DNA of 39,518 nt from Companilactobacillus tucceti DSM 20183. GTDB taxonomy: Bacteria; Bacillota; Bacilli; Lactobacillales; Lactobacillaceae. Positions 4,412 to 35,020 of this stretch are shown in pieces (the first letter of the stretch is position 1; each line of letters opens with the position of its first letter). The notes beneath the pieces were generated by a model that worked only from the letters and a program-made list of their open reading frames with translations, did no database searches and was not told the DNA's origin. The position numbers were made by a program, and so were the translations under genes. Where the stretch lies: the NCBI RefSeq assembly GCF_001434665.1, contig NZ_AZDG01000023.1, positions 1 through 39,518 on the forward strand, read 5' to 3'.

Positions 4412-6061
4412 ATGAAGAAAAAGTTAGGACCCATAATTGCAATAATTGTCTCCGTAGTCATATTCATTATCTTATCCGCATTTGCAGATAGTACCTTAGG
4501 GAGTTCTCAAAAAAATACCTTTTATGATGAAACAACTTCTTTTAAGGAACTGAAGAAGAACCATACTGCACAAGAGGCAGCCAAAATTTCAGGTCTAACT
4601 TATGTTGATGCCGATAAAAGAAGCTCAGCCGTTGAAAAAAGAGTCTATGATCTGATTCATAAAGGTGGATTGTCGCCAAGTCAAAACTATTTGACTGACA
4701 ATACATTTGGTACTAGAACCATGTATTATATTAGTGATTCCAACAAACACGTCGTGGTTAAAGAATATAATCGTTTATGGAGTGAAAATGCATCAACGTT
4801 TATATTAGTTGCTTTAGTTTATATCATCTTTACTAATGCAATTGTTTTGTTCTACTACAAGCGCAAACAAAAACTCAGCAATGATATTCAAAGCGTTACA
4901 GAGAATTTGCATCGAGTAAGAAAGAATAAAGATATGGCTTCTATTATTCTTTCTCCAGATGATGAACTATATGAATTGGTAGAACAAACTAATGAAATTA
5001 GTATGGATATCAATGAGTTGCGTGATAATGCACGTTTACGTGAGCGCAGATTTAAGAGTTTAGTAGGACATCTTCCAATTGGAGTTATGTTGTTGAATTC
5101 TCAAGGTGAGGTTTTAATGCATAACCAAGCAATGTCAGCATTACTTAACGTTAATATTTCTAATGATATTCACCCGTTCATTGAAGATGTAAAGACTTAT
5201 GGTTTAAGTAGAATGATCGAGCATACTTTGCGTAAGAATAAGAATCATCATAAAGAACTACAACTTATTGGTAATTCACAAAAATATGTGGAAGCAAATG
5301 TAATTCGTCTAGTTCACTCACGTGAGGACTTTGATCAACAGATTTTAGTTTTACTTTATGACTTGACTGAAAGTCGTAAGATGGATCAAATGCAAGTTGA
5401 TTTTGTTAATAACGTCAGCCATGAGTTAAAGACTCCAATTACTTCTATTGCTGGATTCTCTGAAACATTACTTAACGGAGCCAAGGATGATCCTGAAAAG
5501 TTAAATCATTTCTTGAATATCATCAATGAAGAAAGCACTCGTCTAACTGAATTGATTCAAGATATTCTATCCTTATCAAAAGTTCAAAAAGATGAAGATA
5601 AGTCAGAAGTTGTTGATGCTAAAAATGACATTGAAAAGATAGTTGAGCATTTATCTCAAAAAATATCTAAACGTCATTTAAACGTTGAAACTAAATTTAC
5701 AGGTAATTCAGAAATAACTATCAATAAAGAGAAGTTCAATTTGATCGTTGGTAATCTGATCAAGAATGCTATTTCTTATAATAAAGAGAACGGTAGTATC
5801 AAAATTGATTTCAATCATGATGAAATTGAAAATCGTATCAAATTCAGTGTTGAAGATACCGGAATTGGAATCGCTGAATCTGAGCAAGATAGAATTTTTG
5901 AAAGATTTTATCGTGCAGATCGTTCAAGAAGTTTAGAAACTGGCGGAACAGGTTTAGGATTGGCAATTGTTAAAGAAACACTTGATACACTTGATGGAGA
6001 TATTAGAATTGAATCTCATAAAGGTTTAGGTACTAAATTTATTGTTCGTATACCATTGTAG
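4412..6061 (+). CDS. phoR: PhoR-type sensor histidine kinase
   Basis: This membrane histidine kinase (549 aa) is the partner of the preceding regulator. It has TM1 at about 7-25, an extracellular loop of about 100 residues, TM2 at about 129-149, a HAMP-like linker, and a PAS-like domain (about 213-320). The HisKA domain has His337 in VSHELKTPI, and the ATPase domain shows N-box NLIKNAISY, DTGIGI, the F box and GGTGLGLAI. AGGTG, overlapping the end of phoP, acts as its ribosome site. The architecture matches PhoR/WalK-type kinases of Firmicutes; adjacency to pst favours PhoR. A large palindromic element begins immediately after the TAG stop. Confidence 0.9.
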   Translation: MKKKLGPIIAIIVSVVIFIILSAFADSTLGSSQKNTFYDETTSFKELKKNHTAQEAAKISGLTYVDADKRSSAVEKRVYDLIHKGGLSPSQNYLTDNTFGTRTMYYISDSNKHVVVKEYNRLWSENASTFILVALVYIIFTNAIVLFYYKRKQKLSNDIQSVTENLHRVRKNKDMASIILSPDDELYELVEQTNEISMDINELRDNARLRERRFKSLVGHLPIGVMLLNSQGEVLMHNQAMSALLNVNISNDIHPFIEDVKTYGLSRMIEHTLRKNKNHHKELQLIGNSQKYVEANVIRLVHSREDFDQQILVLLYDLTESRKMDQMQVDFVNNVSHELKTPITSIAGFSETLLNGAKDDPEKLNHFLNIINEESTRLTELIQDILSLSKVQKDEDKSEVVDAKNDIEKIVEHLSQKISKRHLNVETKFTGNSEITINKEKFNLIVGNLIKNAISYNKENGSIKIDFNHDEIENRIKFSVEDTGIGIAESEQDRIFERFYRADRSRSLETGGTGLGLAIVKETLDTLDGDIRIESHKGLGTKFIVRIPL

Positions 6062-6187
6062 AGAGCGACAAAAAACACGTTCAGCCTTCGAGCATTAAGG
6101 CAAATAGTCCCATCAATCCAGCGGATTGATGGGACTATTTGTTTTAAGCGGAAAAGGTTGTGTTTTTTGTCGCGTTTAAGCAGCAAG
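6062..6187 (+). ncRNA. unrecognised structured palindromic element, copy 1
   Basis: A perfect 14-bp outer inverted repeat, GCGACAAAAAACAC (6065-6078) with its complement at 6160-6173, encloses a conserved left strand, an inner hairpin and a conserved right strand. The left strand (6079-6100) contains a possible UUCG-loop hairpin GCC-TTCG-AGC. The inner hairpin is a perfect 19-bp stem (6101-6119 with 6123-6141) with a 3-base loop. The right strand is TTTTAAGCGGAAAAGGTT (6142-6159). The tail GCGTTTAAGCAGCA (6171-6184) is also shared with the second copy. The inner hairpin plus TTTT could terminate phoR transcription, but the extra conserved parts are not needed for that. I do not recognise the family; structured RNA or a mobile palindromic DNA element are both possible. 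Confidence 0.6.
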
Positions 6188-6208
6188 TTTAAGGAGAATA
6201 AAAGGAGA

Positions 6209-6259
6209 AATCCAGCGGATTGATGGGACTATTTGTTTTAAGCGGAAAAGGCTGTGTTT
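6209..6259 (+). repeat. partial direct repeat of the 3' half of element copy 1
   Basis: These 51 bases match 6115-6165 with one mismatch (offset 94). They contain the loop and right arm of the inner hairpin, the conserved right strand and the first seven bases of the outer right arm, then diverge. The inner left arm at 6101-6119 could therefore pair with either of two identical right arms. The remainder, 6260-6369, is AT-rich; I found no convincing Pho box or promoter there, although one is expected before pstS. Confidence 0.8.
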
Positions 6260-6381
6260 ATACTAATCATTTACTGAAAAAATAGTTTTATCACACCCCT
6301 TTTTCTTATGCTCATTATTATGCTTTTTATACAAAAAATATACATTTCTATATTAGTATTAAAAAGATAGAGGTGAGAATA

Positions 6382-7254
6382 TTGAAAAAAAGACTGGTGG
6401 CTATTTTTACATTATTATTTACTGCAATTTTAGTTTTAACAGGTTGTAAGAGTAATGATCAACAAACAATCACTGCTGTTGGATCATCTGCTGCGCAACC
6501 GCTAGTAGAATTAGCTGGGGAAGAATTCTCTAAAAACAATCCTAATGAATACATCAATGTGCAAGGTGGAGGTACTGGTACTGGCCTTAGTCAAATTCAA
6601 CAAGGTGCGGTAGACATTGGTAACTCTGATCTATACGCTGAACAAAAGAAAAATATCGATGCTAAAAAATTGGTCGATCATCGTATTGCTGCAGTAGGGA
6701 TGGTACCTATTGTAAATAAAAACGTAAAAGTAAAATCATTGACAATTAAACAATTGAGACAAATTTTTTCTGGTCAAATTACTAACTGGAAACAAGTTGG
6801 TGGACAAGATCTTCCAATAACTATTATTAATCGTGCTAATGGAAGTGGAACTCGTTCAGCCTTTGAAGATGATGTTATGGAGGGAACTCCTTCGGTAAGT
6901 TCTCAAGAACAAGATTCTAGTGGTATGGTTCGTCAAATTGTTTATAATACTCAAGGATCAATTAGTTATCTAGCAATGCCATATATGAATAATACAGTTA
7001 AATCAATCAATGTTGATGGTGTGAAACCAACTATGAAGAATATTGAGACTAATAAATGGAAGATTTGGTCTTACGAACATCTTTATACAAAAGGTGAGCC
7101 AAAAGGAATGACTAAGCGTTTCTTAGATTACATTATGACTGACCATGTTCAAAATAAAGTTGTTAAACAATTGGGATATGTTCCCATCAAAGATATGCAA
7201 TATCAAAAAGATTATAAGGGTAATGTAACCCCTATTTCTAAGGAGGGAGATTAA
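6382..7254 (+). CDS. pstS: phosphate ABC transporter substrate-binding lipoprotein PstS
   Basis: PstS captures inorganic phosphate outside the membrane and passes it to PstCA. The start is taken as TTG 6382, because GAGGTG at 6370-6375 is its ribosome site; the in-frame GTG at 6373 lies inside that site. The 290-aa product has a lipoprotein signal peptide with lipobox LTGC near residue 22, then the PBP fold with AVGSSAAQPLVELA and the phosphate-binding NRANGSGTRSAFE. Lipidation would depend on Lgt, encoded downstream in this window. The gene heads the pst operon, with the next start two bases after its stop. Confidence 0.95.
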   Translation: MKKRLVAIFTLLFTAILVLTGCKSNDQQTITAVGSSAAQPLVELAGEEFSKNNPNEYINVQGGGTGTGLSQIQQGAVDIGNSDLYAEQKKNIDAKKLVDHRIAAVGMVPIVNKNVKVKSLTIKQLRQIFSGQITNWKQVGGQDLPITIINRANGSGTRSAFEDDVMEGTPSVSSQEQDSSGMVRQIVYNTQGSISYLAMPYMNNTVKSINVDGVKPTMKNIETNKWKIWSYEHLYTKGEPKGMTKRFLDYIMTDHVQNKVVKQLGYVPIKDMQYQKDYKGNVTPISKEGD

Positions 7255-15023: not shown

Positions 15024-16742
15024 ATGTCTTGGCAAGAAACAATGCAAAATTGGCTTGATTATAAAGAGCTTGATCCTGAATTAAAACAACAATTATTGAA
15101 ATTAAAAGAAGATAAAGAAACAGCTCAAGAAGCATTTTATGCACCAATGGAATTTGGTACAGCTGGAATGCGTGGTTTGATTGGACCTGGTATCAATCGT
15201 ATGAATATCTATACAGTTAGACAAGCTGCAGAAGGTTTAGCTGCTTTTATGGATACTTTGGATGAAGCAACTAAAAAACGTGGAGTAGCAATCAGTTACG
15301 ATTCACGTTATTATTCACAAGATTTTGCTTTTGAATCAGCCAGAGTTCTTGGTGCACATGGAATACATAGTTATGTATTTGATTCTTTACGCCCAACACC
15401 TGAGTTATCATTTGCGGTTAGAGATCTTAATACATACGCTGGTATTATGATTACCGCAAGCCATAATCCTAAAGAATACAATGGATTTAAGATTTATGGT
15501 CCAGATGGTGGTCAAATGCCTCCAGTTGAATCTGACAATATTACTAGATTTGTTCGTAAAGCAAGTGATCTATTTGCAATCAATACTAAAACAATCACTG
15601 AATTACGTGATGAAAACTTGATGAGCTTAATCGGAGAAGATGTCGATTTAGATTACTTAGATAAGTTAGATACAGTCGTAGTTGATCATAAATTGATCGA
15701 AGAAGTTGGTAACAAGATGAAGTTTGTCTACACACCACTTCACGGAACAGGTAAAATGATTGCTCCAAGAATTTTTCAAAAACTTGGTTTTAAGAATTTT
15801 ACTATGGTTACAAAACAAGCAATTCTTGATCCCGAATTTCCAACTACTCCAGCTCCAAATCCTGAGTTTGCCCAAACATTTGATTTAGCTATTGAAAAGG
15901 GTAAAAAGATTGGTGCCAATATTTTAATTGCAACTGATCCAGATGCAGATAGATTGGGTGCAGCAGTTCGTCAACCTGATGGTTCATACAAATTGATGAC
16001 TGGTAACCAAATTGCTTCAGTACTTTTGAACTACTTATTGAGTGCCAAAAAGAAGTTAGGAACTTTGCCAACAAATGGTGCGGTTGCTAAATCAATCGTC
16101 TCTTCAGAATTGGCAACTAAGATAGCTGAAAAATATGATGTTAAAATGTTTAATGTTTTAACAGGATTTAAATATATTGCTGAAAAAATTGAAGAATTTG
16201 AAGAAACTGGTAGTCATGAATTCTTATTTGGATTTGAAGAAAGTTATGGATACTTAGTTAAACCTTTTGTTAGAGATAAAGATGCCATGCAATCAACTAT
16301 TTTGTTGGCAGAAGCAGCCGCATATTATGAATCAAAAGGTAAAACAATCTATGATGCCTTAGAAGATTTGTATCAAGAATTCGGTTATTATCGTGAAAAG
16401 ACGGTTTCTAAGACATTTGCTGGTATTTCTGGTAAAGAACAAATGAAACAAATTATGGAGAAATTCCATGAAGAAGGAATTAAAGAAGTAAATGGTGTTA
16501 AAGTCGTTGAATCGATCGACTACTTAAAGGACACTGATACAACAGCAAATGGAACCAATAAGACAGGTTTACCAAAGGCTGATGCAATGAAGTTTATTCT
16601 AGAAGATAATACTTGGATCGCTATCCGTCCGTCAGGTACAGAACCTAAGATGAAGTTTTATGTAGGAATTACTAGTGATAGTGATGATAATGCTGCTAAG
16701 AAACTTGAAGAATTTGCTAAAGTTATTGATAGTTGGGAATAA
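15024..16742 (+). CDS. pgcA: alpha-phosphoglucomutase
   Basis: This enzyme interconverts glucose-1-phosphate and glucose-6-phosphate, supplying UDP-glucose for wall polymers and exopolysaccharide. The 572-aa protein has all four domains of the phosphohexomutase family: the catalytic serine loop TASHNPKEYNG, the magnesium-binding loop DPDADRLG, the sugar-binding loop GFEESYGY and the phosphate-binding loop RPSGTEPKMKFY. The length and GFEESYG signature fit the PgcA/PgmB2 group rather than GlmM (about 450 aa). AGGAGGA (15010-15016) precedes the ATG. It is probably monocistronic, with its own promoter and terminator. Confidence 0.95.
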   Translation: MSWQETMQNWLDYKELDPELKQQLLKLKEDKETAQEAFYAPMEFGTAGMRGLIGPGINRMNIYTVRQAAEGLAAFMDTLDEATKKRGVAISYDSRYYSQDFAFESARVLGAHGIHSYVFDSLRPTPELSFAVRDLNTYAGIMITASHNPKEYNGFKIYGPDGGQMPPVESDNITRFVRKASDLFAINTKTITELRDENLMSLIGEDVDLDYLDKLDTVVVDHKLIEEVGNKMKFVYTPLHGTGKMIAPRIFQKLGFKNFTMVTKQAILDPEFPTTPAPNPEFAQTFDLAIEKGKKIGANILIATDPDADRLGAAVRQPDGSYKLMTGNQIASVLLNYLLSAKKKLGTLPTNGAVAKSIVSSELATKIAEKYDVKMFNVLTGFKYIAEKIEEFEETGSHEFLFGFEESYGYLVKPFVRDKDAMQSTILLAEAAAYYESKGKTIYDALEDLYQEFGYYREKTVSKTFAGISGKEQMKQIMEKFHEEGIKEVNGVKVVESIDYLKDTDTTANGTNKTGLPKADAMKFILEDNTWIAIRPSGTEPKMKFYVGITSDSDDNAAKKLEEFAKVIDSWE

Positions 16743-34617: not shown

Positions 34618-34800
34618 ATGGTATTAACTGATGCACAGAGACGTGCGAATGAAAAGTGGCATAGAAATAATCGTGAACGTGCCAATTATATAGCTATGAG
34701 ATCTTCAGCAAGAAGCTTCATAAGAAAGAAGTCAACCTTGGATGATTTGGATGGATTAGAGGAGATTATCAGGAAACGTAGAGAAGAGCTGAAAGAGTAA
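34618..34800 (+). CDS. small basic helical protein of unknown function
   Basis: This 60-aa protein has many basic residues (NEKWHRNNRERANYIAMRSS) and an acidic-basic helical C-terminus (LDDLDGLEEIIRKRREELKE). Similar short proteins beginning TDAQxxANxKW occur in streptococci and lactobacilli, often in accessory regions (recalled, not searched). It could bind nucleic acid, but no known fold is evident. The ribosome site GGGGAGAG (34602-34609) lies nine bases before the ATG. It follows the WxL-like gene by 28 bases and is followed at once by the second palindromic element, so it may be linked to that element. Confidence 0.7.
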   Translation: MVLTDAQRRANEKWHRNNRERANYIAMRSSARSFIRKKSTLDDLDGLEEIIRKRREELKE

Positions 34801-34924
34801 GAGCGCATCAAAACACGTTCAGCTTTCGAGCATTAAAGTAAAATGGCCCAGCAACCTGAAGGTTGCTGAGCCATTTTATTTTAAGCGGAAAAAGTTGTGT
34901 TTTGATGCGCGTTTGAGCAGCATA
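34799..34924 (+). ncRNA. unrecognised structured palindromic element, copy 2
   Basis: The outer inverted repeat GCGCATCAAAACAC (34803-34816) pairs perfectly with 34897-34910. Compared with copy 1, four adjacent bases in each arm differ, and pairing is kept. The left strand (34817-34838) differs from copy 1 at only two positions; one of these makes a perfect GCT-TTCG-AGC tetraloop hairpin. The inner stem (34839-34856 with 34861-34878, one mismatch, TGAA loop) has an unrelated sequence. The right strand TTTTAAGCGGAAAAAGTT (34879-34896) and tail GCGTTTGAGCAGCA are conserved. The element lies between convergent genes and begins right after a stop codon. Confidence 0.6.
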
Positions 34925-34974
34925 CTTAAGAAAGATATATAGGACGCTCAAATTTTCATTTACTGTTGCATGTG

Positions 34975-35020
34975 ATTTAAACGAAAAAAGTTGTGTTTTG
35001 ATGCGCGTTTAAGTAGCATA
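34975..35020 (+). repeat. partial direct repeat of the 3' half of element copy 2
   Basis: This stretch repeats the conserved right strand, the whole outer right arm GTGTTTTGATGCGC (34993-35006) and the tail of copy 2 with a few changes, at an offset of 96 bases. The outer left arm at 34803-34816 therefore has two possible partners. Copy 1 shows a partial repeat at almost the same offset (94). Confidence 0.8.

Follow-up and report, generated by a model that had tools for sequence, protein, structure and literature searches.

A structured element of about 120 bases at the ends of dozens of genes in Companilactobacillus tucceti suggests an unlisted family of gene-end structures

The window analysed here, a stretch of 39,518 nucleotides of DNA from Companilactobacillus tucceti DSM 20183, carries two copies of one hairpin-forming element (Table 1). 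Copy 1 begins at the stop codon of a gene for a phoR-like sensor histidine kinase, with a response regulator gene before it and a gene for a phosphate-binding-type protein after it; judged by these neighbours and by its predicted domains, phoR is a fair name for the gene. The kinase is matched in all 36 genomes of the genus, that of C. tucceti included, and the protein is 93% identical to its counterpart in Companilactobacillus baiquanensis and 90% identical to those in C. keshanensis and C. kedongensis.

Table 1. Features of the window and the basis on which each was placed.
Feature	Position	Strand	Basis or remark
Gene for phoR-like sensor histidine kinase	4412..6061	+	Pfam HATPase_c, HisKA, PAS_8; stop TAG 6059-6061 adjoins element
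Element copy 1, full hairpin	6060..6175	+	Model R1 (119 positions), 126.8 bits, E 1e-29
Copy 1 outer stem, left arm (variable; partner 6160-6173)	6065..6078	+	Centroid fold
Copy 1 conserved GUUC-type bulge	6079..6082	+	Fold and alignments
Copy 1 middle helix, left strand, and CGA side of conserved internal loop	6083..6091	+	Fold, alignment
Copy 1 inner hairpin	6095..6149	+	UUAA base conserved; stem variable; tip AAUCC/GGAUU conserved
Copy 1 inner hairpin, U-rich 3' side UAUUUGUUUUAAG	within 6095..6149	+	Fold, alignment
Copy 1 GGAA side of internal loop and middle helix, right strand	6150..6159	+	Fold, alignment
Copy 1 outer stem, right arm	6160..6173	+	Centroid fold
Copy 1 second right half: hairpin tip, same inner-stem right arm, conserved right strand	6209..6259	+	
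Copy 1 presumed right end: ATAGTTTTATCACACCCC, then T-tract	6282..6304	+	Boundary inferred by eye
60-aa ORF	34618..34800	+	Stop TAA 34798-34800 directly before copy 2
Element copy 2 (L028), full hairpin	34798..34912	+	Model R1, 122.1 bits, E 1.8e-28
Copy 2 second right half, same outer block GATGCGC	~34974..35019	+	10/10 bases of block

Folded as RNA, copy 1 reaches -66.1 kcal/mol (z -12.8) and copy 2 -61.1 kcal/mol (z -10.7), and none of 200 shuffles of either was equally stable. A sequence-only reading had described one architecture common to 6065-6173 and 34803-34910, with which the boundaries set by our covariance model agree, and had pointed to a four-base outer block and an inner stem that differ between the two copies; in the folds, both are indeed paired within each copy. 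The core hairpin stands as described there, but the feature is longer, with a second right half behind each copy. That of copy 1 is 98% identical to positions 76-126 of the query (blastn) and ends before the outer block. The T-tract at the presumed end of copy 1 occupies the place of the terminator T-tract of relatives (locus L071 compared with L072 and L074).

The count of two copies holds within the window but not for the genome, where blastn with copy 1 found about 40 further places. We aligned 40 oriented copies with MAFFT, derived a consensus structure of 45 pairs with RNAalifold and built covariance model R1. All 75 loci submitted match R1 at E ≤ 1e-16 as full-length copies; the search gave 80 matches at this threshold, five of them antisense echoes of the same places, and weaker matches also exist. 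The notion of a two-copy curiosity is therefore rejected.

Among the 40 copies, 97.7% of 1797 alignment cells pair. Changes on both sides occur in 26 of the 45 pairs, against 16.8 ± 1.7 in shuffled alignments, and in 10 of the 14 pairs of the outer stem. The covariation score is 0.413, compared with 0.144 ± 0.007 for shuffled and at most 0.076 for slid versions; the alignment was not fitted to the structure, and the structure was derived from the same alignment on which it is counted. Covariation thus exceeds both kinds of control, as would be expected of a conserved structured RNA, and together with fold stability against shuffles it rejects a chance origin. The covariance-model search that the sequence-only reading had proposed as a check returned numerous copies in which the stems covary and the conserved strands recur.

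The consensus runs, in its 5' half, from the stop codon through GAGYG, a variable arm, CAYG, a bulge (GUUC in most of the 40), AGCUUU and CGA to GCAUUAA. The 3' half consists of a variable hairpin with the tip AAUCC/GGAUU, then UUAAGC, GGAA, AAAGCU, RUG, the complementary arm and CRCGUUUA. Between the variable outer and inner stems there is thus a conserved module made up of the GUUC-type bulge, the AGCUUU/AAAGCU helix and the CGA/GGAA loop.

The sequence-only reading had named no matching family. Rfam 15 gave no match at the gathering threshold in the window and ten further loci of the genome, and none up to E 0.01 in 20 loci of other genera; copy 1 with its flanks (6000-6350), searched up to E 10, gave 17 hits, all below gathering scores and the best at E 0.0022. 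A known Rfam family is rejected on this ground, the gathering score never being reached. A matching description was not found in the open-licence literature searched, three motif strings included. A phage origin of copy 1 was also considered and rejected, blastn giving no match in a phage collection. With paired arms that change together around a small central module that is kept, and with relatives in many related bacteria, the element points to a family of gene-end structures not listed so far.

A folded sense transcript tolerates G-U pairs and not A-C pairs, so the balance between the two bears on whether the element works as RNA or DNA. Read in the sense direction, G-U exceeds A-C by 42 to 18 in the MAFFT alignment (p 0.003), by 75 to 30 in a model-fitted alignment of 57 rows from relatives and by 97 to 47 in one of the 75 own copies; these cells are not independent, and model-fitted alignments lean to pairs. 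The excess, about 2:1, is present in the outer, middle and inner zones. Antisense echoes, second hits per locus, locus L041 (a place already represented) and pairs with G-U in at least 30% of rows (one or two pairs per alignment) were left out of the count. A report on the L17 downstream element, in the part available to us, argued for the strand from G-U pairs in the same way (PMC2864571). Where the earlier reading had left a choice between a structured RNA and a DNA fold recognised by a protein, the structure is now strongly supported and the choice leans to RNA. Strand-biased C-to-T change would push the counts the same way, and the excess is support for RNA, not proof.

The element sits at gene ends in a preferred sense. 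Among 77 own-genome copies (80 loci were fetched, and L162, L165 and L168 were dropped since no anchor was found in them), with open reading frames called by a simple script, the upstream gene lies on the same strand in 70, and in 62 a same-strand gene has its stop codon no more than about 20 nt from the 5' end of the element. The gene that follows points towards the element in 51 copies and runs with it in 26; five copies are antisense to both neighbours and two lie between divergent genes. A stop codon is equally close in 22 of 29 congeners (one locus each) and in 15 of 27 loci from other genera and families, the other 12 having no same-strand stop so near. Among annotated records, a Pediococcus damnosus plasmid has a CDS with its last base at 15079 and an element match that begins at 15077; in an Enterococcus faecium plasmid the gene is annotated as reaching 38 bases into the match, to a point in the left conserved strand.

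The architecture extends well beyond the genome. R1 matches 33 of 35 congeners (34 of the 36 genus genomes with our own), and its matches among relatives come to 37 of 60. In a sample of 345 genomes from the order it matches 34 (17 of 79 genera), and in one of 398 from the class it matches 2. When 28 matched loci, 27 of them outside the genus, were folded, most showed the same architecture by eye with different stems, and even the middle helix replaced by complementary letters. We built a second model, R2, from a MAFFT alignment of 27 sequences (24 outside the genus and three within; 16 pairs), in which inner stems are poorly aligned and from which L284, L300 and L303, all outside the genus, were left out. 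R2 matches 102 of the 345 order genomes and 36 of the 79 sampled genera, a reach that is not independent of R1, with which its sequences were found. In the class draw, which includes members of the order and an unstated number of genomes from outside it, R2 matches 12 of 398; nine belong to a single further family (f17) and the other three to the order. Among the 27 sequences of R2, which span genera and families, two-sided changes occur in 15 of the 16 pairs, with a covariation score of 0.647 against 0.220 ± 0.022 for shuffled alignments, the structure again being derived from the same alignment; here the middle helix, too, covaries between families.

Plasmids also carry the element or parts of it. 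Three from Enterococcus faecium match 95% of an Enterococcus-type copy, in two pieces, and in three from Pediococcus damnosus the match extends over 83% of a query that joined another copy to its flanks. In seven Lactiplantibacillus plasmids and one from Pediococcus acidilactici only the left half of copy 1 is matched; the two of these matches that were read both break off in the inner stem. Among congeners, R1 matches per genome, which are lower bounds, run from 0 to at least 60: G003, G012, G022, G031 and G034 gave none or one and other congeners at least 60, with R2 giving one match in G031.

Comparison with relatives shows the element standing where they often have an intrinsic terminator. 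After phoR, for which 30 loci were fetched with that of the window included, the element motif occurs within 400 bases in none of the 29 other congener loci, and each of these 29 gene ends has, by eye, a hairpin and a T-run. In 1.59 Mb of C. baiquanensis, 44 of the 77 element loci have collinear flanks; seven intervals longer than 450 bases were left out and 37 were scored. The strict motif marks five of the 37, and 32 are without it. Of these 32 gene ends, 23 carry a terminator-like hairpin in C. baiquanensis by a script test (stem of at least 7, 5 T in 8); in the window's genome, where the test covered just the right-hand side of the element core, four do. The core itself passes the same test in 30 of 32 cases in the forward and 28 of 32 in the reverse direction; the test counts an A-U stem base as a U-tract and is laxer than a strict terminator scan, which gave no site in 5900-6400. 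By eye, many C. baiquanensis intervals hold an ordinary terminator between the stop codon and a T-tract shared with the window's genome, and others hold other structured families or longer sequence. Also by eye, C. baiquanensis shares the element at L034 and L040 in the same sense and at L140 in the opposite sense, has a remnant opposite L021, a doubtful case at L157 and, at L012, a copy without its left part that the motif missed. The direction of change is clear at phoR only, as two genomes cannot separate gain from loss elsewhere.

The sequence-only reading had set the element apart from mobile elements and from plain terminators. Both contrasts now look too sharp, given that its presence varies among close relatives at the same gene ends and that it takes a place where they often have a terminator. 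The first of these facts is also what would be expected of the main rival to a host role: a mobile DNA element, not autonomous, that a transposase or recombinase would recognise by its single-strand or cruciform fold through the bulge and loop, in the manner of attC, with gene ends being only the least harmful insertion sites or sites of target hairpins. The widely different match counts of the congeners fit this rival as well, as do tandem rows of the element at four loci outside the genus (L322, L328, L333 and L336; by eye) and the precedent of BOX, RUP and SPRITE in Streptococcus pneumoniae, small structured repeats of high copy number that are enriched between convergent genes and, in the portion of the source available, read as parasitic (PMC3049150). 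We nevertheless consider it unlikely, if a serious contender, because insertion where it does no harm would not be expected to fix strand sense and distance to the stop codon so tightly, the G-U excess counts against it, and the intervals compared with C. baiquanensis look, by eye, like replacement of a native hairpin. As to the marks of a MITE, identical terminal repeats and a target-site duplication, the arms of the element are complementary and differ from copy to copy, and in those intervals we noticed no clear target duplication (by eye, unscored). PF01797, the Y1 family, has no match at E ≤ 1e-10 in the own genome, a 51-contig draft in which a gap is possible; it is present in 15 of the 36 genus genomes, among them G012, which has 1 element match, and G001, which has 3. 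Within the limits of the draft, a resident Y1/RAYT transposase is rejected as the mobiliser.

Other structured families came into view alongside the element. A second gene-end family of the own genome (L169, L170, L171, L173, L174, L175, L177 and L180) has the same outer ends and another interior (GAGAGTGTGACAAAAGGCGG..CCACCGGAGCATAGCCTAGAA, a hairpin, TTCGTAGCTATGTGGAGGTTGCAGCC..), and faces the element's copy in the C. baiquanensis comparison at L014, L036, L137 and L143. A third, GAGCGTGACATAAGGCGGTTAGAGACTGAGCATATCCTAGAA.. hairpin ..AGCGGAGGTCTCTGCCTTATGTCACGCG and variants, stands in C. baiquanensis opposite L021, L031, L133 and L153. The fourth is several-armed and lies there opposite L014, L017, L027, L143 and L152, with conserved pieces like CTGCTGTGGGACCG, CTTCGCAAAGTTCGCGAA and CACTGCTG and self-complementary arms that differ by place; five C. 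baiquanensis tiles scanned gave no Rfam match for it. In tile L234 of C. baiquanensis, two Rfam rli28 matches (1150-1331 and 1817-2005) lie close to the tmRNA gene. Searched for as the possible mark of an autonomous transposon with shared ends, the end-sequence pattern of the element occurs at 38 places in the own genome, and the 15 stretches taken, with 300 bases read after each site, held other structured families and insertion-sequence-like ends. At L173, L180 and L182, contigs of the own genome stop within such structured elements, at the point where an insertion-sequence-like end (GGTACTG...) starts, so these elements may be targets of some insertion sequence.

The two stems vary almost independently of each other. 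Over 2775 copy pairs, the Spearman correlation between outer-stem and inner-stem variation is 0.07. The inner stem is shared, with no more than one pair different, by 38 copy pairs, and 21 of them have at least four different outer pairs; among the 43 that share an outer stem, at least six inner pairs are different in 16. Copies that are one pair apart differ on both sides of that pair in 20 of 31 cases for the inner stem and in 16 of 38 for the outer. These statistics come from an alignment fitted to the model, with antisense echoes left out, and the copy pairs are not independent. Stepwise mutation alone should leave mostly one-sided differences at the smallest distance, which suits the outer stem better than the inner. 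We infer that the stems, and the inner hairpin above all, pass as blocks from one copy to another by way of the conserved strands, whether or not template switching takes part.

Two less likely accounts start from these observations and from the second right halves. In 13 of the 77 copies, copy 2 among them, the second right half agrees with the outer block of its own copy in no fewer than 9 of 10 bases; comparisons with the outer blocks of other copies reach that level in 2.6%. In 64 copies, copy 1 among them, the 154 bases searched hold no such repeat. Two further right halves in a row, each with the copy's own outer block, follow the element at L003 and L017, and at L012, L018 and L127 its left end is tandemly repeated right before it (for example AGAGTGCAATGAA in L018). 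One account invokes DNA mechanics in place of selection: template switching at the palindrome would copy one arm onto the other, and covariation would be a by-product. The inner two-sided differences, the own-block repeats and the repeated left ends all suit it, but two-sided changes at small distance also suit block exchange between copies and are fewer in the outer stem, and the conserved middle, the presence in 36 of 79 genera, the stop-codon position and the G-U excess would be left unexplained; we regard it as improbable. The other account is an attenuator-like RNA switch in which the left arm would pair with either the first or the second right half or tail. Near-exact downstream repeats of the block matching the left arm would permit this in the 13 copies, and one subfamily has a tail, GTTTTGTCCCAAACTC, complementary to its 5' end. 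Such a switch would need loops of more than 100 nt and second halves that, by eye, look more decayed than the first in several copies, and most copies have no repeat to pair with, which makes it very improbable.

The reading that we favour, at confidence just under even, is that of a structured module of gene ends. It would stand in for the native terminator and be retained for that work, a factor would bind its middle, and it would spread in bursts. The 75 copies, their covariation, the stop-codon position, the terminators of relatives and the G-U excess all lead to it. The module would form the 3' end of the upstream mRNA, beginning at the stop codon, and would fold into one long three-zone hairpin, in which the conserved middle lies between an outer stem and an inner hairpin that both vary, the latter U-rich on its 3' side. 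This inner hairpin would act in place of the intrinsic terminator and 3'-end hairpin native to the gene, in many cases serving two convergent genes together. The middle, with its bulge, six-base-pair helix and small internal loop, would be the putative binding site of a factor that serves the RNA or the spreading. From gene end to gene end the module would spread in lineage-specific bursts, its stems being renewed as blocks by exchange between copies, of which only paired versions would survive. The five copies antisense to both neighbours and the two between divergent genes speak against this reading, as do the 12 loci of other genera or families with no same-strand stop so near and the E. 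faecium gene that ends inside the match. Two observations count against the terminator function: the strict scan gave no site in 5900-6400, and a transcript that ended at the inner hairpin would lack the right outer arm, which nevertheless covaries. Termination may then be partial, or the whole hairpin may matter as DNA or as a longer RNA; covariation of the outer stem is poorly covered by every account considered here.

More tentatively, the element may represent an order-wide class of mobile 3'-end RNA modules, in which a fixed recognition module between two exchangeable stems would invade gene ends, replace native terminators and be kept for terminator work. If such a class exists, the gene-end structures of many lactic acid bacteria would be shared, spreading parts bound by a common putative factor, not private sequences. 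The pneumococcal repeats, read as parasites, are nearly confined to their species and its nearest kin in the part of the account available (PMC3049150), and here one architecture is found in 36 of the 79 sampled genera of the order. Should the terminator and factor parts of the favoured reading be true, the element would make the turnover of terminators through invasion tractable to study, and it would be a target in the search, in these bacteria, for a protein that binds RNA or recombines. The 75 copies in one genome are a natural variant set for what a gene-end hairpin must keep.

Among known systems, the attC sites of integrons are long imperfect palindromes right after a gene, with variable complementary stems, conserved unpaired bases on one strand and a variable end hairpin. 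The present element resembles them in this anatomy, but by eye no pair of R-boxes is recognised at its ends and it is scattered over the genome. With REP and REPIN sequences and their RAYT transposases it shares the character of interspersed palindromes, and it differs from REP in measuring about 120 nt against 20-40 bp and in the absence of a Y1 match from the genome, as far as the available parts of those sources describe them (PMC3116915, PMC3733652, PMC2817692).

Structured elements of related bacteria come closer. The L17 downstream element, RF01708, is likewise structured and found in 3' UTRs of Lactobacillales, but in the portion of the report available it is tied to one gene (PMC2864571), and no Rfam family reaches threshold in the window. 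Efa-1 of Enterococcus faecalis is an intergenic structured repeat of 163 bases in 65 copies (PMC2267715, seen in part). It is, like the present element, a structured repeat of lactic acid bacteria, a group in which three E. faecium plasmids carry a relative of our element, and it could be such a relative itself; compared by description, it differs in being predicted as a pair of adjacent stem-loops. In the account of BOX, RUP and SPRITE, as far as it was available, these repeats are almost entirely absent from other streptococci, and SPRITE, found near 3' ends, is thought to have been co-opted as a terminator (PMC3049150). Compared by description only, the present element is, like them, a small structured interspersed repeat of high copy number near gene ends; unlike them, it is matched by R2 in 36 of 79 genera, starts near the stop codon and has covarying stems. 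It is thus a small structured interspersed repeat, and an unusual one in its range, its place and its stems.
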